Shown here one piece after another: positions 14,048 through 40,346 of a stretch of DNA of 54,547 bases (positions are counted from its first letter, which is position 1; every line of letters starts with the position of its first letter). A model generated the notes under the pieces. That model did not search any database, was not told the origin of the DNA, and saw only the letters and a list, made by a program, of their open reading frames with translations. A program made the translations under genes and the position numbers. The DNA comes from an uncultured Bacteroidaceae bacterium (lineage in GTDB: Bacteria; Bacteroidota; Bacteroidia; Bacteroidales; Bacteroidaceae): NCBI GenBank assembly GCA_939800445.1, contig CALNGU010000004.1, forward strand, positions 1-54,547, given 5' to 3'.

Positions 14048-17000
14048 TCAGAGGTTGCGCCCGCAGCAATGCTTGTACTTCTTGCCCGAACCGCAGGGAC
14101 ACGGGTCGTTGCGGCCTATTATTTTTTCCGATTTCATAGGCTCTTGCTTGGCGTTCTCGCGGGTGTCGCGGGCTGCCACTTCGCTCATCTGGCTTGTGGC
14201 ATCCTGCTTGTTTTCCTGCAAGTGGCGGTTTGGCTGGCGTTGCTCGGGTGGTGCTTGCCTGACATCTCCCGGGTCTTGGACGGGGATTTGCCCGCGCATG
14301 AGGACAGAGATCGTGCCGTTGTTGATCTTCTCGACCATGCTGTCAAAGAGGTTCACCGACTCAAGTTTGTATATGAGCAGTGGATCTTTTTGCTCGTAGC
14401 TGGCATTCTGCACCGAATGTTTGAGGTCGTCGAGTTCGCGGAGGTTCTCCATCCAGGCTTCGTCGATGGTGTGGAGGAGCATCCTCTTTTCAAATTCCTT
14501 CACCACTGACTTGCACTCGGTCTCATATGCTTCCTTGAGGTTGCACTGTATGTTGTATATCCTCTTGCCGTCGGTGATGGGGATGAGGATGTTCTCATAC
14601 CGGTCGCCTTGTTCTTCAAAGACTTTCTTGATGACGGGGTTGGCTATCTCGGCAAGTCTCTCTGTCTTGCGCTTGAATACGTCCATCGCGGCGTTGAATG
14701 CCTTTTCTGTGAGGTTTTCCTTGCTGACTTTCTGGAATTCGTCCTCGGTGAACGGCGGTTCCATTGCCATGATTTTGAAGAAGTTGAGCTTTGCCGTCTC
14801 GTAATCGCCGTTCTCCACGATGCTTGCGCAGCGTTCCCATATCATATTCACGATGTCCATCCCGATGCGTTCTCCCATGAGGGCGTGGCGGCGTTTGGTG
14901 TAGATGACGACGCGTTGCTTGTTCATCACGTCATCATACTCAAGCAGGCGTTTGCGGATGCCGAAATTGTTTTCCTCGACTTTCTTCTGCGCTTTTTCGA
15001 TGGCGTTTGAAATCATCTTGTGCTCAATCATTTCGCCCTCTTTGAAGCCGAGCTTGTCCATGATTGTCGCAATCCTGTCAGAGGAGAAGAGGCGCATGAG
15101 GTTGTCCTCCAACGAGACGAAGAACACTGACGAACCCGGGTCGCCTTGACGGCCCGCACGGCCGCGCAACTGGCGGTCGACGCGGCGTGACTCGTGACGC
15201 TCTGTGCCGATGATGGCAAGGCCTCCTGCGGCTTTGACCTCGGGACTGAGCTTGATGTCCGTTCCACGTCCTGCCATGTTGGTCGCGATGGTGACTGTCC
15301 CGCTCTGACCAGCCTGGGCGACAATCTCTGCCTCCTTTTGGTGGAGCTTGGCATTCAGGACGTTGTGCTCTATTTTCCGCATCTGGAGCATCTTGCTCAA
15401 CATCTCTGAGATTTCGACTGAGGTCGTGCCGACCAGTACGGGGCGGCCGCAGTTGTGCATCTTCTCTATTTCTTCAATGACTGCCTTGTATTTTTCACGC
15501 TTTGTCTTGTACACGCGGTCGTTCATGTCGATGCGTGCGATGGGTTTGTTGGTGGGGATGACTACGACGTCGAGTTTGTAGATGTCCCAGAATTCGCCAG
15601 CCTCAGTCTCTGCCGTACCCGTCATGCCTGACAGTTTGTGGTACATCCTGAAGTAGTTTTGCAGCGTGATGGTAGCGAATGTCTGGGTTGCCGCCTCGAC
15701 TTTGACGCTTTCCTTGGCTTCTATCGCCTGGTGCAAGCCGTCCGAGTAGCGGCGGCCTTCCATGATGCGGCCGGTTTGTTCATCCACGATTTTGACTTGA
15801 CCGTCGATAACGACATATTGGTCGTCCTTCTCAAACATCGCGTAGGCTTTCAGCAGCTGGTTGATGGTGTGCACGCGCTCTGACTTGACGGAGTAGTCGG
15901 TCAGGAGTTCGTCCTTTTTGTTCAACTTCTCCTCCTCTGAGAGGTCTTTTTGCCCTTCGAGTTCCGCAAGTTGGCTGGTGATGTCTGGCAAAATGAAGAA
16001 CGACGGGTCGGAAGCATATTTTGAGATGAACTCGATGCCCTTGTCCGTGAGATCCACCGAGTTGAGCTTTTCGTCTATCACGAAGTACAACTCGTCTGTC
16101 GCCTCATGCATCCGCTTGTTGTTGTTCTCCATGTAGATTTCTTCAGTCTTGAGCATTCCTGCTTTGATGCCTGGTTCGCTCAGGTACTTTATGAGAGCCT
16201 TGTTCTTGGGCAGTCCCTTGTGTGAGCGGAACAAGGAGAGCCAGCCTGCTTCCTGCTCCTCTTTCTTGTCTGACTGGATGAGCCGTCGTGCATCCGAGAG
16301 GAGTTTGGTGGCCAAAGTCCGTTGGGTGTTGAAGAGGTTCTCGACCATAGGCTTGAATTCCTCGAACATCTGGACTTCGCCCTTGGGAACTGGACCGGAG
16401 ATAATCAGAGGGGTACGTGCATCGTCAATCAACACAGAATCGACCTCATCGACTATGGCATAGTTGTGCTTGCGTTGTACGAGGTCGCGCGGGTTGCCCG
16501 CCATGTTGTCGCGCAGGTAGTCGAAACCGAATTCATTGTTCGTCCCAAACGTGATGTCCGCGAGGTATGCCTTGCGCCTTGCTTCCGAGTTGGGTTTGTG
16601 TTTGTCGATGCAGTCAACACTCAGCCCGTGGAATTCGTAGAGTGGCCCCATCCATTCGGAGTCACGCTTAGACAGGTAGTCGTTGACAGTGACCACGTGC
16701 ACCCCATTGCCCGTCAATGCGTTGAGGAATACCGGGAGTGTGGCCACGAGGGTCTTGCCTTCACCTGTCGCCATCTCGGCTATCTTGCCTTTGTGCAGGA
16801 CTACGCCGCCGAAGAGTTGGACGTCGTAGTGGACCATGTTCCATGTGATTTCGTTACCGCCAGCCATCCAGTGATTCTGGTATATAGCCTTGTCGCCGTC
16901 AATCCTGACAAAATCCTTGGTGGCGGCAAGCTCGCGGTCAAAGTCGGTGGCTGTCACGACGATTTCCTCGTTGCTTGCAAATCGCTGGGCGGTGTTTTTC

Positions 17001-17341
17001 ACAATTGCGAATGCTTGCGGGAGGATTTCGTCAAGAGCCTTCTCGTATTTGTCAAGGACTTCTTTCTCCAGCTTGTCTATTTGGTTGAAGACTTCCTCGC
17101 GGTCTTCGAGTTCGAGGGTTTCGACCTTGGCCTTCAGATCGTTTATCTTTTCTTCCTCTTCTTTCGCTGAATCCTTGACGAACTTGCGGAGCTCTTGTGT
17201 CTTGGCACGCAGCTCGTCATTTGACAGTTTCTCTATTTCCGGATAAGCGTCCTTGATTTTTTGAACCCAAGGCTGTATCTCTTTCATGTCTCGGGTTGAC
17301 TTATTCCCGAAGAGCTTTTTTAGAATCTCGTTAAATCCCAT
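14048..17341 (-). CDS. secA: Preprotein translocase ATPase SecA
   Basis: The 1097-residue motor drives proteins through SecYEG at the inner membrane. Visible parts are the Walker A loop [15 protein letters not shown] (about residue 190), the DEAD-like [20 protein letters not shown] (about 298), [15 protein letters not shown] and [16 protein letters not shown] of the second motor domain (about 690-745), and a C-terminal zinc SEC-C motif ([20 protein letters not shown]). It exceeds E. coli SecA (901) through insertions, including one near 340-430, as is usual in Bacteroidetes. The C-terminal linker is Gln/Arg-rich. A TAACTTTG box lies 47 bp upstream, so it has its own promoter within the minus-strand run. 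Confidence 0.97.
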
Positions 17342-17419: not shown

Positions 17420-19048
17420 CTACCCCTGTTTTAAATCGGTGACAGGTATTGCCGAGGCCGCGTTGGGGGCTCTTATCCTCAGATAATAGGCGATTGTCGG
17501 GGCGACAATCTCTGTATTTACCGGTGTGTTGATCAACTCTCCCTTGATGCCGCCTCCCCAGAAAATTATGGGTGATGCGGTGAAATTGGCTCTTTCAACC
17601 CTGTACTCGTAGGAGTTTTCGTTTCTCGATGACCAGCCAGGCAACAGTTCGTAGAGGATGTCACCGGACCGCCGGTAGTTGAAACGGTTGCGCCACCTCT
17701 GAATCTCGGGGTCCCACGCGCCAATCAGTATGCGTTTGGCAGTGTAGGCGTTGGCTATCCCGTCGAAGGTTGATAGAAACTCGGTGGCGTCGCGTGTTAT
17801 CGTGTCGTAGTCCAGTTTCCGTTCCTTCAGCAATGGATGGTTGAGGTATATCTCGTTGCCTGAATAGCCGTGCACGTAGTTGCCCTCGCCGTATTTTGCC
17901 ATGAGAAACATATTGAGCAGGGCGGAACAGCGGTTTATGTAGAATTCCCCGGCTGGAATCTTATACTTCTTCAGGTCGGCATTCTCTTTCCCGACATATC
18001 CGGTCGAGGTGATGACGACGAGCAGGTTGTTTGCTCCACCCGCTTTCTTTGCTGCCGCGTCAATTATGCGTCCGACCTGGCGGTCGAGGCGTGCGTAGGT
18101 GTCCTGGATTTCAAGCGAGCATTCCATCGTGCTCTTCCCGTCGAAATTGCCGGCATAGAGCGTGACTGCCACGAGGTCGGGTGTCCCGTCATCACCGGCA
18201 GGGCTCTTCTCGATGCATTGCACGACCATATTGCCGATTTCCTCATTGACAAGCGCGCTTTTGACGAACTTCTTGAGCTTGAGGAAACGGAAGTCCTTGA
18301 ATTTGTGGTTGAACGTCTCCTCCTGCCACTCAGATGTGAGGTAGGTGTAGTTCTTGCAGTCGAGCAGCGGCTGCCACTCCATCTTGTCTATCCGTTGGTC
18401 GATTGAGAGCGAGTCGTTGTAGATTGTCACCCAGTAGGGCAGGTCTTTGTAGTAGGTGGTCGAGCACCATTTGCCGTTGTCTTCGTTTATCCACACGGCG
18501 CAGTCGGCATTGCGGCCTGCCGAGAGCAATGCGCTCTCGGGGTCGGCGGCGATGGTGAAGACGAAACCTCGCTCTTGCGTCGAGATTTTCAACTCATCGG
18601 CGAGGGTCGAGACAAGGAGCTTCTCGGGTGAGAATCCCGACCTGGTGTAGTTGCCAAGGAACTCATCGTCGCCGACACAGTTGACGACGCTCTCGCTCCG
18701 CCTGTCAAACCAGTCACGGCCTATTATGCCATGGACGGATGGCGATGTGCCAGTGTTGATGGTCGCCACTGCCGATGCCAGGTCAGGGTTGTTGAAGTCG
18801 AGATAACCGTTGCGGAAGGTAGTCCCGTCCCTCATCAACCGTTTGAATCCGCTCTCCCCGAACAGTGGGGTGAAACGTTCCAGATAGTCGCTTCGCAGCT
18901 GGTCCACCGTGATGCTCAGCACCAGTCGTGGCGGCACGTCACCTCCCTGCGCCTTGCCCTCGGTCATGGCGAGCATGGCCAGAGCCGAGATGAGCAGCAG
19001 CTTCAGGCGGCGGTCAGTTTCTTGCAGTTTGTTCTCAGAGTGTAACAT
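17420..19048 (-). CDS. Alkaline phosphatase-superfamily protein, probably catalytically inactive
   Basis: A 542-residue exported protein with a signal peptide near residues 15-34 (LKLLLISALAMLAM…) and a type I phosphodiesterase/PafA-like fold: RLVLSITVDQLRSDYLERF (about 41-59), TINTGTSPSVHGIIG, QDTYARLDRQVGRIIDAA and ASPIIFWGGGIKGE. Only the first metal-ligand Asp (in TVDQ) remains. The nucleophile region reads NPDLASAVATIN, the usual D..GH site reads AGNFDGKSTME, the DHG site reads TSTGYVG, and no C-terminal HG is seen. It therefore looks like a pseudoenzyme that may bind a ligand or partner. It overlaps the upstream DUF4105 gene by 46 bp, so expression is coupled. No alternative ATG keeps the signal peptide. 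Confidence 0.72.
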   Translation of the reverse strand: MLHSENKLQETDRRLKLLLISALAMLAMTEGKAQGGDVPPRLVLSITVDQLRSDYLERFTPLFGESGFKRLMRDGTTFRNGYLDFNNPDLASAVATINTGTSPSVHGIIGRDWFDRRSESVVNCVGDDEFLGNYTRSGFSPEKLLVSTLADELKISTQERGFVFTIAADPESALLSAGRNADCAVWINEDNGKWCSTTYYKDLPYWVTIYNDSLSIDQRIDKMEWQPLLDCKNYTYLTSEWQEETFNHKFKDFRFLKLKKFVKSALVNEEIGNMVVQCIEKSPAGDDGTPDLVAVTLYAGNFDGKSTMECSLEIQDTYARLDRQVGRIIDAAAKKAGGANNLLVVITSTGYVGKENADLKKYKIPAGEFYINRCSALLNMFLMAKYGEGNYVHGYSGNEIYLNHPLLKERKLDYDTITRDATEFLSTFDGIANAYTAKRILIGAWDPEIQRWRNRFNYRRSGDILYELLPGWSSRNENSYEYRVERANFTASPIIFWGGGIKGELINTPVNTEIVAPTIAYYLRIRAPNAASAIPVTDLKQG

Positions 19049-20226
19049 ACGCTTCGGAGCAGCAAAGATAGTGCCAAAAACAGTATGGCACTGTTGAATT
19101 CTTGTGGAATGACAAAGATAAATGCAAAAAACAACGCAATTACCGCCGCATTCGCCATGTGGTAGTAGGACTTGCGCCGCTTCACCTCTTTATATATGAA
19201 GAACGGCATCAGCAGCAGGTGCGCCGGATGCGTGAACAGCAACATATAGTTTGGCGACGTGGCAGGGTGCGTCGAGAACAGCACCAGAAATGCCACCACC
19301 AACCCGCAGACACCAGCCGCGCCAAACAGGATGATGTCAACACCCCACAGCGTCTTGCCTATGCGCCACTCGATGATGCACACGGCGGCGGCCAGCACAA
19401 ACAGCGTGACAAACACCATCATCGGCGACGGCACCCACGGCTGCGGCGCGACCTCGGCGGCCGAGACGATGGCGCGTGGCGTGCCGGCGAGCTTGACCCT
19501 CACCCCGGTGCTGTCGGTGTAGTAGGCGTTGTCGAGGAAGTCCTTGTAGTAGAACGGTGCAAACATGGCCTCGCGCACCCCGATAGGCGCGTCGGCAGGG
19601 CTGCCAATGCAGATGTCCATCCCGAGCTGCGACCACTCGTGCCCTTGGGCAAACTGACGCACAATCGTGCGGAAAGAGGTGGCCGTCAGGCTCTTGTCAT
19701 AATCGACCACAGCACCGACAGCCTCCTCAATCCTGTCCCTTGCTCGTGTCGTGCAGTTGTCGTAGAAGAAGTTGTAGCGGTAGACGCGGTTCTCGGGTGC
19801 ATAGTTCTCCACCAGCGCGAGGAGCAGCGACAGTTTTTGCCCGTCTGTGAGGTTCAGCTCTTGCTCGTAGATTTGCGAACCCCGGTGGTGGTACTCGGGC
19901 CAGAACCACTCAAAGCCTGTGATGCCGAGCTGGTAGTCCGTCTCGCCCTTGACAAACCTCCAAACGAAATGCGGTGTGTCGAAGCTGAACATCCCGTAGT
20001 TGAAAACAATGTCAGCACCGTTGTCCGCATTCTCATAGCGGATGGCCGTGTGCCCGAACAGTTCGTATATCTCGTCCCCCGGTGCACACGTCAGCAGGCT
20101 GAACCGCACCTTGTCGAGGCGCAGCGTGTCCCCCGTCGCAAGCACCACCGACGATGCCCGTGCCGTCATGGTGACGAGCAGGGCGATGGCCACGGCGAGC
20201 AGCGGGGATGCAGATTTCCTATTCAT
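19003..20226 (-). CDS. DUF4105/Lnb-type membrane-anchored protein
   Basis: A 407-residue protein with a signal peptide (about 1-25), a periplasmic DUF4105 domain (about 35-300), and four or five C-terminal membrane helices (about 275-400). The domain shows GDEIYELFGHTAIRYE with His59 and YRYNFFYDNCTTRARDRIEE with Cys158, plausible catalytic residues of a papain/NlpC-like fold. Pfam now names this region the Lnb N-terminal periplasmic domain after a Bacteroides lipoprotein N-acyltransferase; applying that activity here is an inference. Its start overlaps the exosortase stop by 4 bp, and its end overlaps the phosphatase-like gene, giving a tightly coupled three-gene unit. Confidence 0.75.
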   Translation of the reverse strand: MNRKSASPLLAVAIALLVTMTARASSVVLATGDTLRLDKVRFSLLTCAPGDEIYELFGHTAIRYENADNGADIVFNYGMFSFDTPHFVWRFVKGETDYQLGITGFEWFWPEYHHRGSQIYEQELNLTDGQKLSLLLALVENYAPENRVYRYNFFYDNCTTRARDRIEEAVGAVVDYDKSLTATSFRTIVRQFAQGHEWSQLGMDICIGSPADAPIGVREAMFAPFYYKDFLDNAYYTDSTGVRVKLAGTPRAIVSAAEVAPQPWVPSPMMVFVTLFVLAAAVCIIEWRIGKTLWGVDIILFGAAGVCGLVVAFLVLFSTHPATSPNYMLLFTHPAHLLLMPFFIYKEVKRRKSYYHMANAAVIALFFAFIFVIPQEFNSAILFLALSLLLRSVCYTLRTNCKKLTAA

Positions 20227-20843
20227 TCCTTCCCTTGTCCTTTGTTACTGTATGCTTTCAAGTGTGTCTCGACGCACGCCGCCATGACGGCGAAGACGGC
20301 TATGGTGAACGGCACTCCCACCGTCACGTCATGGACGAAGGCGAAAGAGCCGTGGTCGTCGCCCGTTGCCGTCGCGATGACAGCTATGCGTGCCACGTTC
20401 ATCACCCCTGTCGCCGCCACTCCCGCGAGGGCGGCCAGCGACTTGCGTCCCGCATTGCCAGGCAGGCACATCACAGCAGCGATGAGCGCGAGCATATGCC
20501 TTGCCCCCGTGCACCTGCCGCTGATGCTGAACGCTGTCCCCGTGCCGCCATCGATGATGCAATGCCTCACGCCGTGCGCCGTCCTTGCCTTGCGGGTGGC
20601 ATATCCGCCCTCCGCCACGTTGCACGCCGCCGTGGCAGCCCGTGCAGTCAGCCCGCATGAGGCATCGACCGCTGCTGTCCACAGGTGCGCCAGATGTTGC
20701 GCCGTCCGCCCGTGGCCGCCGGCATCGGCCCATACCGTGATGCCGCGCCCTGCATAGTCCAGGGCGAACAGCGTGATGACGAAGACGAACAGGCAACGCA
20801 CCCTCGTCAGCATCATCCCCTTGCCCGCAACCGTCCTTGCCAT
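20223..20843 (-). CDS. Exosortase/archaeosortase-family membrane protein
   Basis: A 206-residue integral membrane protein. Hydrophobic segments lie near 15-37, 113-127, 136-158 and 170-192. The exosortase triad is recognisable: Cys111 in GRCTGARHMLAL (usual 'CSGLR'), Arg152 in GVMNVARIAVIA (usual 'N..RI'), and His171 in FVHDVTVGVPF. These enzymes cleave and process proteins bearing C-terminal sorting tags at the cytoplasmic membrane. No PEP-CTERM-like substrate is visible in the window. It is the first gene of the unit with DUF4105/Lnb (4-bp overlap), so it may work on envelope proteins with that partner. The middle of the protein is divergent, hence moderate confidence. Confidence 0.65.
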   Translation of the reverse strand: MARTVAGKGMMLTRVRCLFVFVITLFALDYAGRGITVWADAGGHGRTAQHLAHLWTAAVDASCGLTARAATAACNVAEGGYATRKARTAHGVRHCIIDGGTGTAFSISGRCTGARHMLALIAAVMCLPGNAGRKSLAALAGVAATGVMNVARIAVIATATGDDHGSFAFVHDVTVGVPFTIAVFAVMAACVETHLKAYSNKGQGKE

Positions 20844-21038: not shown

Positions 21039-21109
21039 TCAGTTGTTAGTGGCTATAACAAACATTGTTTGTCACAATAACAAGGTTTGTTATAGCCACT
21101 AACAACTGA
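21039..21109. repeat. Family 3 phased dyad array (three 19-bp dyads, 22-bp period)
   Basis: Units begin at 21043, 21065 and 21087. Each is a 19-mer of form TTGTT-N9-AACAA, separated by 3 bp. Unit 3 (TTGTTATAGCCACTAACAA) is the exact reverse complement of unit 1. With neighbouring bases the outer arms (21039-21063 and 21085-21109) form a perfect 25-bp inverted repeat. Flanks shared with the copy at 34.7 kb, in opposite orientation, include GATGACTTTGGC and ACACCGTATGC (minus strand, 20963-21040). It lies between the divergent exosortase and ruvB genes. Confidence 0.9.
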
Positions 21110-36413: not shown

Positions 36414-39400
36414 ATGAACATTGGCAAACGCTTTATCGCGGCCGTTGCCGCGCTGTGCCTTTTGCCGTCCATCTATGCGCAAGGACAGTTGCCGCTGGCG
36501 GTGGGGGAGAGTGTGTTTTACGACAACAACACCTTTATTTACAAGGACAAGATGTCTTGCAACGGAAGTGAAATCTACACCAGTGATGGCTGGGGAGCTT
36601 TCACCATGACATTCCAGGATGCGCCTGGGATGCTGACGTTGCAGTATTCGAGAAACCAATGGGGAAAAAACAATGAGATGGGTCTCCAGGAGAGTTCCAA
36701 CAACACGGACTGGACGGACATCTATGTCGGAAATCCGCCTACCGACTGGACTGACCTCTCATTCATGCTTAAGCCGGAAACGAGGTATATCCGCTTTTGG
36801 TACGGTGCTGATTTCAAAATTGGTGATTGGTGGACCAAGGTGGGCTACTTGCGGGACATCAACATAGCGAAGGCTATCTACACCCCGACCGAGAGCCTTG
36901 CTTTCGAGACCGAATGCAATGTGCAGCAAGCCCAGGAGTTTGAATTGGATGTGACGAACCTCAAGGGCGATGTCGTGCTGGAGTGCTCCAATCCAGACTT
37001 CACCGTCTCGCCGTCGTCATTGAGCCGTGATGAGGCTTTGGCGGCGGGCACTGTCACTGTCACCGTCACCTACACCCCGACCGAAGCGGTGTCGGCCGAG
37101 GCGGTACTGACGATAAAGGATGCAGCCTATGAAGCCAACAACGAGACTATCGCCTTGAGCGGAACAATGTTGCCGTCAGTCCCGACGGTGGGTGAGGCGA
37201 CAGAGGTGGATGCCACCTCGTTTGTCGCCAATTGGCAGAATGTTGCAGACTTCACCACCCTGCTCACTGTGATGCGTGACGGCACGCCGCTCGACGGTTA
37301 TGCCGACCTTGAGTGCCAAGGGTTCAGCCACAAAGTCGAGGGATTGCAGCCAGGAGCGACCTACACCTATCAAGTCAAGGCTAAGAGCGGCGAGACGGTG
37401 ACTGAACCGTCCGACGTGGCTACCGTGACATTGCCTGTCCCGTCTGTCGAGGTGGAAGGGTTTGAGCCGTTTGTTACCACGGCTGGTGCACCGGTGTCGC
37501 AGACCGTAGGCATCACGGCAGCGAATCTTGTCGGCGATGTCGCCTTGTCATTGAAGTATGGCGAAGTGTTCACTCTTGACACAAGCAGCCTTGGCGCGGA
37601 TGAGGCCGATGGGGCAGTGGTGGAAGTCTCCTATTCGCCTGTCGCAGTGGGCGAGGATGTTGACACTCTGTTCGTCACCACCGACTACGCCACTGCGTTG
37701 TCCATTCCGTTGCGCGGTGTCAATTCGCTCGAAGCTCCTGTTGCCTTGGAGGCTGAGAATGTGACCAACTCGGGATTCACCGCACGCTGGGAGGCGGTTG
37801 ACGGTGCGACGGACTATCGTTTGACGGTCATGGACGCTGCCGGCACGCCGCTTAATATATATAATGGTATAGCGACTGGCGATGTCACGTCCTATGCCGT
37901 CACCAACCTCTTGCCGTCCACCACCTATTCCTATTCGGTGCGCTCGGTGGCAAACGGTGCGGTGTCGGAGGATGCGTCTGACGTGATCAGCGTCACCACT
38001 GCCGACGGTGCGGTCATCACCTACTCGCACACGCCAAAAGACTTTGTGGCAGTGCGCGGCACATCGGTCGCACAGGCTGTCAGCGTCAGCGGCTCGAATG
38101 TCTTCGGTGCAATCACGGCAGCGGTCACGGGCGGCGAATCGTTCACCATCGACAATCCATCGCTCCCGGCAGAGGGCGGGATGCTGACCATCACATTCGC
38201 CCCTGATGCTTTCGGCACTCACACAGCCACGTTGTCGCTCTCTGCCTCGGGGGCTGAGACGGTCAACATAGCTCTCAACGGCACTGCCACTCCTGACCGT
38301 GTGGCAGCATCGCCGGCGACGGAGGTCGGCACGTCTTCATTCACTGCCAACTGGGAAGCGGTCGATGGCGCACAGTCCTATCTCCTGACCGTCCGCCGTG
38401 GCGGTCAAGTACTCCCTGAGTGGGACGGCGTGGAGGTCGCCGATGCCACTTCGCACGCCGTTGACGGGCTGAACGAGGCAACATCCTACAACTATTCGGT
38501 CAGTGCGGTGGCCGACGGTGCGGTGGGCGAAGCATCACCCGCCGTAGGGGTCGTCACCCTTTACACCCCGGTGGTGGAGGTTGTTTCTGTCAATGAGGCA
38601 TCGGCTGCCGTCAAGTGGAACGCTCCGTTTGCGGCGGACAACTATACACTCACGTTGAAGCAGGCTGGCAGCATCGTCAATGGCTATGCCGAGGTGCATC
38701 CCACGTCGGCGGCCTATACGTTCACTGGTCTCCAGCCTTTCACCGAGTATGAATGCGAGTTGACCACAACCTTTGGGGCGGTAGAGGTGCAGTCCGCCAC
38801 CGTGTCATTCACCACAACGGCTGCCGGCACTGCGTACGGCAACCAGCTGCATAACTCCGGCTTCGAGCAATGGGAGGGGTCGGGCGACACATACGAGCCA
38901 GTCGATTGGAACAGTTTCGGCACCATGACCGGCAGCTATGCGTCAATGGCGGAGATGGCCGGCATACGCATGGAGCAATCTGCCGATGTACGCCCCGGCA
39001 CCGACGGCAGCAAGAGCGTGCGCATCTGGACGGGGAGCGTGTTTGGCATCAAGGCAAACGGCAACCTCACCACGGGGCGCATCAACGCAGGCTCGATGAC
39101 TGCCACCGACGCGGCCAACCACAACTTCACGGTCGTTGACGACGAGGCGTTCAGCGAACGCATCGACGCGCGTCCCGACTCGTTGACGGTGTGGGTCAAG
39201 TATACTCCCGCCAACTCGTCGTCAAAGGCGAAAGTCTCGGCCATCATACACGACAACTACTCCTACCGCGACCCGTCTGGCAGTGACCCCGATGCAGGCA
39301 ACCATGTCGTCGCGACCGCTGAGATGAGCTACCAGTCGGCAGGGGGAGGGTGGCAGCGTCTGTCCGTCCCGTTCAACTATCGCGACAACGGGCTGTCCCC

Positions 39401-40346
39401 CGACTATATGCTCGTGTCGTTCACTTCCAACATGACCCCTGGCGGAGGCGATGCCGACGACGCGGTGATTGTCGATGACCTGCATCTCGTCTACAAGCCC
39501 GTGCTGACCGTTTCGCCGCTCGCGGTGAATGCTGTCAAGGCCGGTGACGTGCTGGTTGTTGACTACGAACTCACCGGCTCTATGTCTGTGTCCAACATAG
39601 CTGCCGACCGCAACACCGTTTCGTTGCAGCTGTCGGATGCCAACGGTTCGTTTGCATCCCCGCACGTCCTCGCCACCATCACCACGGACAAGTCGGGCAA
39701 GCTCGTCGGCACAGTGCCCGAAGGGCTTGAGCCTGGCGGCGGATACAAGGTGCGTGTCGTCACCACCAACTATCCCATGACCGCCGAGGCGCGCGGGACG
39801 CTGACCGTGTCGGGCGACGGCGTGCCGGTCATCAATGCATCATTCGACCAGGTGCTTGAGGCGCAGGTAGGCGTGGGAGCGGCACAGGCGCAGATGAGCA
39901 TCGGCGGCGAGAACCTTGCGGGTGAGATATTTCTTAACCTCTCGTCGGATGTCTTCACCGTGTCGCCCACCGTGCTGCCAGCCACAGGGGGGACGGTGAC
40001 AGTCACTTACGCGCCGCACCTCCCGGGTGACGACGAGGCACGGCTCGTGATCAGCTCTGTCGGGGCAGAGGATGTCGCGCTCACCCTGCGCGGACGTGCC
40101 GAGTTGCCCGTGGCAGTAGGCAGTGTCATCGCCGACGGCACGCGCATCGGCCTCTGGCCCAATCCAGTGGTTGACATCGTTACGCTTGACGGTGTTGAGG
40201 ACGATGCGCCGTTCTGCATCTACTCGCTCGACGGGCGCATGGCCATGGCGGGCAAGCTGCAAGGCGTGACCGCCGACCTTTCCGGCCTGCCGCGCGGCGC
40301 GTATGTCATGGTCGTGGCAAACACTCAGGTCAAGTTCATCAAGTGA
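36414..40346 (+). CDS. Large secreted FnIII/Ig and PCMD-domain protein with T9SS sorting domain
   Basis: A 1310-residue exported protein. Signal peptide 1-22. FnIII-like modules occur near 254-340, 440-530, 627-715 and 720-805 (each with 'sF.a.W..v.ga..Y' as in TSSFTANWEAVDGAQSYLLT), interleaved with Ig-like choice-of-anchor modules near 343-437, 535-625 and 1138-1229. A jelly-roll PCMD carbohydrate-metabolism-type domain spans about 809-1029 (NQLHNSGFEQWEG … VIVDDLHLVYKP). The last ~65 residues (LWPNPVVDIVTLDG, CIYSLDGRMAMAG, ADLSGLPRGAYVMVVA, VKFIK) match the type A C-terminal sorting domain of type IX secretion. It is probably displayed on the cell surface and binds or organises glycans. 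It has its own promoter and terminator. Confidence 0.82.
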   Translation: MNIGKRFIAAVAALCLLPSIYAQGQLPLAVGESVFYDNNTFIYKDKMSCNGSEIYTSDGWGAFTMTFQDAPGMLTLQYSRNQWGKNNEMGLQESSNNTDWTDIYVGNPPTDWTDLSFMLKPETRYIRFWYGADFKIGDWWTKVGYLRDINIAKAIYTPTESLAFETECNVQQAQEFELDVTNLKGDVVLECSNPDFTVSPSSLSRDEALAAGTVTVTVTYTPTEAVSAEAVLTIKDAAYEANNETIALSGTMLPSVPTVGEATEVDATSFVANWQNVADFTTLLTVMRDGTPLDGYADLECQGFSHKVEGLQPGATYTYQVKAKSGETVTEPSDVATVTLPVPSVEVEGFEPFVTTAGAPVSQTVGITAANLVGDVALSLKYGEVFTLDTSSLGADEADGAVVEVSYSPVAVGEDVDTLFVTTDYATALSIPLRGVNSLEAPVALEAENVTNSGFTARWEAVDGATDYRLTVMDAAGTPLNIYNGIATGDVTSYAVTNLLPSTTYSYSVRSVANGAVSEDASDVISVTTADGAVITYSHTPKDFVAVRGTSVAQAVSVSGSNVFGAITAAVTGGESFTIDNPSLPAEGGMLTITFAPDAFGTHTATLSLSASGAETVNIALNGTATPDRVAASPATEVGTSSFTANWEAVDGAQSYLLTVRRGGQVLPEWDGVEVADATSHAVDGLNEATSYNYSVSAVADGAVGEASPAVGVVTLYTPVVEVVSVNEASAAVKWNAPFAADNYTLTLKQAGSIVNGYAEVHPTSAAYTFTGLQPFTEYECELTTTFGAVEVQSATVSFTTTAAGTAYGNQLHNSGFEQWEGSGDTYEPVDWNSFGTMTGSYASMAEMAGIRMEQSADVRPGTDGSKSVRIWTGSVFGIKANGNLTTGRINAGSMTATDAANHNFTVVDDEAFSERIDARPDSLTVWVKYTPANSSSKAKVSAIIHDNYSYRDPSGSDPDAGNHVVATAEMSYQSAGGGWQRLSVPFNYRDNGLSPDYMLVSFTSNMTPGGGDADDAVIVDDLHLVYKPVLTVSPLAVNAVKAGDVLVVDYELTGSMSVSNIAADRNTVSLQLSDANGSFASPHVLATITTDKSGKLVGTVPEGLEPGGGYKVRVVTTNYPMTAEARGTLTVSGDGVPVINASFDQVLEAQVGVGAAQAQMSIGGENLAGEIFLNLSSDVFTVSPTVLPATGGTVTVTYAPHLPGDDEARLVISSVGAEDVALTLRGRAELPVAVGSVIADGTRIGLWPNPVVDIVTLDGVEDDAPFCIYSLDGRMAMAGKLQGVTADLSGLPRGAYVMVVANTQVKFIK

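Follow-up and report, generated by a model that had tools for sequence, protein, structure and literature searches.

An exosortase-family gene upstream of a conserved Lnb, pseudo-phosphatase and SecA gene block in Bacteroidaceae

Lnb was identified in 2024 as the enzyme that N-acylates lipoproteins in Bacteroides (Armbruster et al. 2024, PNAS 121:e2410909121, as cited in PMC13103446 and PMC12994826). Its activity in this genus, as well as the His/Cys core of the family, is described here after these two citing reports (PMC13103446, PMC12994826). Among the exosortases of Bacteroidota, XrtF (TIGR04128, Flavobacterium johnsoniae Fjoh_1448) and XrtX (NF046081) are likewise small proteins with a Cys-Arg-His core, and XrtF of F. 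johnsoniae is required for surface colonisation and biofilm (PMC10936215). A third described relative is the alkaline phosphatase PafA (5tj3). In this study, we report the analysis of a stretch of 54,547 nucleotides from an uncultured Bacteroidaceae bacterium (contig CALNGU010000004.1), referred to as the window, in which an exosortase-family gene, an Lnb gene and a gene for a degenerate relative of PafA follow one another. The features of the locus are provided in Table 1.

Table 1. Features of the exosortase-Lnb locus, with positions numbered from the first letter of the window
Feature	Position	Strand	Description
Exosortase/archaeosortase-family gene	20223..20843	-	206 aa, predicted multi-pass membrane protein; TIGR04178 match
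ATGA stop/start overlap, exosortase/Lnb	20223..20226	-	4 bp; also in relatives
Lnb lipoprotein N-acyltransferase gene (predicted)	19003..20226	-	407 aa; DUF4105 periplasmic domain and 5-TM domain
PafA-family pseudo-phosphatase gene	17420..19048	-	542 aa, secreted; start possibly near 19003 instead
SecA gene	14048..17341	-	1097 aa; final gene of the conserved Lnb-pseudoPafA-SecA block

An earlier note on this DNA had described three overlapping genes that are translated together. The three reading frames were recovered on the minus strand and the ATGA overlap of the first two is real, while the 46-bp overlap proposed for Lnb and the pseudo-phosphatase exists only with the ATG at 19048 as start. 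Pseudo-PafA homologues at loci L020 and L022 begin at the position corresponding to codon 16; this codon is CTG in the window (19003) and ATG in L018, so that the second overlap depends on the choice of start. The ATGA overlap was kept in each of the five Avibacteroides and the two f24 genomes, the latter from another family, and thus in 7 of the 11 genomes with an exosortase upstream of Lnb; in the two Bacteroides sequences inspected it was absent, the genes being separated by 2 and 16 bp. Since the Avibacteroides and f24 exosortases that share it are only ~20-60% identical to each other, the overlap is not due to chance, which supports joint translation of the exosortase and Lnb genes. The unit had been drawn as ending at the pseudo-phosphatase, and here it has to be extended: secA starts 78 bp downstream and was missed. 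Its product, which we take to be SecA by its sequence, is 62-98% identical to that of the downstream gene at homologous loci.

On the other side of the locus, a perfect 24-bp inverted repeat with a 21-bp loop was found at 21040-21108, between ruvB and the exosortase gene. Its arms are scattered through the genome (19 matches with ≤3 mismatches; control, 0), and the repeat is a member of a REP- or MITE-like family.

The possible lipoprotein N-acyltransferase of the earlier note gained support from the profile searches. The protein matched NF051878 almost from end to end (profile positions 21-390 of 394) with 505.9 bits and E = 6.6e-152; this score lies under the equivalog cut-off of 550, which only 3 of the 135 matching genomes of the order passed. 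PF13387 and PF25221 were both over their cut-offs, so that the Lnb_N and 5TMH_Lnb domains are present, and the protein was the only PF13387 match of the genome. Residues H59 and C158 were invariant in all eight sequences compared and, from their order in the sequence, would form the catalytic pair of a permuted NlpC/P60 core (cf. PMC12994826). The product is thus predicted to be an Lnb-type lipoprotein N-acyltransferase, sharing with Bacteroides Lnb the full-length match, both domains, the His/Cys pair and the single genome copy, but differing in its score and in the exosortase gene upstream. Comparison with locus L019 gave a dN/dS of 0.17-0.21 for Lnb.

The exosortase assignment also held, the profile searches that might have spoken against it giving 39.6 bits for the TIGR04178 signature (cut-off 23). 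The proposed residues Cys111, Arg152 and His171 are correctly placed, and were invariant in the nine Lnb-linked exosortases aligned and in 56 of 56 relatives within the order. The protein did not reach the gathering score of PF09721 (Exosortase_EpsH; 15.9 bits against 25.7) nor the cut-offs of the named subtypes XrtX (31 against 170 bits), XrtH (35.9 against 86) and XrtY (18 against 160). For XrtF it had no listed match, and its relative at L020 scored 49.6 bits against a cut-off of 90. XrtF and XrtX are the best named profile matches of its relatives, with scores far under the subtype cut-offs, and their gene context differs. In addition, the XrtF partner family TIGR04127 was not found in the window's genome, nor above cut-off in 247 genomes of the order. 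By these scores, it is a real exosortase that falls in no named subtype. The AF2 model was helical (pLDDT 74); Foldseek returned no significant match to it, and the hits of VIA-align were unrelated helical proteins, with Z no higher than 6.4. When PDB sequences were searched with the alignments of the exosortase and of Lnb, nothing relevant was returned.

The degenerate phosphatase had been recognised correctly and proved not to be a local oddity. It matches PafA (5tj3) with E = 3e-59 (phmmer) and is alignable over about 500 residues, but differs at the catalytic and zinc-binding residues: the nucleophile Thr79 is replaced by Leu, Lys162/Arg164 by Asp/Glu, D305/H309 by Asn/Lys and D352/H353 by Thr/Gly, and H486 is lost, leaving the equivalent of D38 as the only one kept. 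An active phosphatase of the PafA mechanism was ruled out, the nucleophile and nearly all zinc ligands being gone. Every Lnb-linked PafA relative examined (87 of 87 in Bacteroidaceae and 26 of 26 further copies) had likewise lost the nucleophile and almost all of the metal ligands, and these copies typically carry Asn, Thr and Gly at D305, D352 and H353. Between the window and L019, dN/dS was 0.06-0.08 for pseudo-PafA, below the values for Lnb and the exosortase, and 0.02 for SecA; judged by these values, pseudo-PafA is under strong purifying selection although predicted to be catalytically dead. In a set of 50 genomes lacking an Lnb match, a PafA relative of any kind was present in 14 and the Lnb-type Thr-Gly signature in a single one. 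At loci L268, L269, L270 and L272 of Lnb-lacking Bacteroidales, other degenerate PafA relatives adjoin a gene that by eye resembles geranylgeranylglyceryl phosphate synthase, with a peptidase-like gene (also named by eye) beside them in some; this looks like a second gene context for pseudo-phosphatases.

Lnb and a PafA relative were adjacent at all 80 Bacteroidaceae Lnb loci surveyed. SecA followed at 77, and at the other three the examined stretch ends first. In other Bacteroidales genomes, 17 of 20 Lnb loci had the order Lnb-Paf-SecA and 18 had Lnb-Paf. An exosortase stood upstream of Lnb at 5 of the 80 loci, belonging to four Avibacteroides and Bacteroides luti, and coaX was found divergently upstream at 50. 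With the window and three further Bacteroides genomes, there are nine exosortase-Lnb loci in Bacteroidaceae, and the total of 11 comprises Avibacteroides (5 of 5), Bacteroides (four) and f24 (two). Both f24 genomes have exosortase-Lnb-Paf, with SecA next in G323 and the contig ending first in the other. On these gene orders, the conserved unit is Lnb-pseudoPafA-SecA, old and widespread in Bacteroidales, with the exosortase as an optional, lineage-restricted upstream gene. The three-gene module of the earlier note therefore stands as to order and coupling but has to be redrawn around this core.

Across the order, the exosortase and Lnb genes were not associated. In a reconstructed list of 295 genomes, 52 had both, 73 the exosortase only, 83 Lnb only and 87 neither (p = 0.24). 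Among the 47 with both and with positions listed, the genes were linked in 3; in the other 44 they lay on separate contigs or more than 100 kb apart, in assemblies that are fragmented. The arrangement is not unique to this genome, but an exosortase is usually found far from Lnb. In families f78, f31 and f91, the related exosortases adjoin coaX without Lnb. Those of f42 (L169, L170, L172, L176) were seen beside a tsaD-like gene. All Lnb-linked exosortases and their coaX- or tsaD-side relatives fell in one supported clade of 25 rows (95/100), and a single origin of the Lnb-linked ones was not rejected (p-AU 0.23), on a weak tree with long branches. We infer that an old coaX-exosortase neighbourhood joined Lnb-Paf-SecA and was then lost in most Bacteroidaceae; the f24 arrangement may represent a separate joining. 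Given the coupling signal and its recurrence, yet no co-occurrence, translational coupling of the exosortase gene to Lnb, with co-expression of the two, is well supported, whereas an obligate exosortase-Lnb pathway is not. Pseudo-PafA associates with Lnb more tightly than the exosortase does, and the Lnb-pseudophosphatase link is the stronger lead.

The search for a substrate covered 843 kb, 38% of the genome. No C-terminal tag of exosortase type (motif, TM segment and basic tail) was seen in it by a heuristic scan run without a positive control, nor among the window proteins, as previously noted. The scan gave 11 strict and 2 looser matches, none resembling a repeated exosortase tag; presumably, one of the two looser ones is like an rRNA methyltransferase and the other like NuoA. 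In the genome, 32 matches to type IX secretion C-terminal domains were found, so that a C-terminal sorting system other than the exosortase is probably present. One of them (40152-40343) lies in a large exported protein encoded in the window at 36414-40346.

The explanation we propose joins the anatomy of the locus, the redrawn unit with its optional exosortase and a role for the pseudo-phosphatase as partner of Lnb, and as a whole we hold it with somewhat more confidence than doubt. SecA would drive export. Lnb would N-acylate diacylated lipoproteins on the outer side of the inner membrane, an activity established for the Lnb of Bacteroides. Pseudo-PafA, which is secreted, would act as a non-catalytic partner of Lnb, for example by binding the phospholipid donor, the lyso-product or the lipoprotein substrate. 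Acting on one or a few proteins exported by Sec, the exosortase would cleave their C-terminal membrane segment and hand the new end to an acceptor. Exosortase and Lnb would have expression and compartment in common; a common substrate is possible, though not indicated.

It must be considered that the exosortase could serve an unrelated envelope pathway, such as the attachment of an adhesin or exopolysaccharide, and use the constitutive Lnb-SecA operon only for steady expression. We give this about an even chance; it overlaps with the proposed explanation and differs from it only in the target of the exosortase. The lack of co-occurrence in the order, the related exosortases beside coaX or tsaD in other families and the need for XrtF in surface colonisation and biofilm by F. 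johnsoniae (PMC10936215) speak for it, but the linkage with its ATGA overlap is seen in two families whose upstream genes differ, and it has been kept although the exosortase diverges very fast. The conserved gene order and translational coupling would fit the module of the earlier note, a single protein- and lipid-modifying pathway of exosortase, Lnb and pseudo-PafA, in which the exosortase processes the C-terminus of lipoproteins N-acylated by Lnb. This is unlikely: most Bacteroidaceae have Lnb and pseudo-PafA without an exosortase, the two genes do not co-occur in the order, and no lipoprotein with an exosortase-like tail was found in the 843 kb scanned. More doubtful still is a Sec-linked lipoprotein maturation operon that needs the dead phosphatase as Lnb partner and in which, in some lineages, this exosortase subtype acts on the same lipoproteins by trimming or anchoring their C-terminus, both ends being modified.

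Decay of the exosortase gene in the window's lineage would explain its low identity to L019 (61%, where Lnb reaches 83% and SecA 98%), its skewed composition and its shortened N-terminal half. However, the frame is open in five of five species, the triad is invariant, dN/dS is below 1 (0.35-0.45 against L019) and the ATGA overlap is kept, which makes decay very improbable.

With respect to the proposed Lnb-pseudoPafA-SecA unit and its optional exosortase, the pseudo-phosphatase tied to Lnb across Bacteroidales provides lipoprotein N-acylation in abundant gut bacteria with a concrete candidate for a missing partner. In addition, an exosortase subtype with a defined and conserved operon context allows the search for its substrate to be put to the test in Bacteroides that can be cultured, B. 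luti among them.
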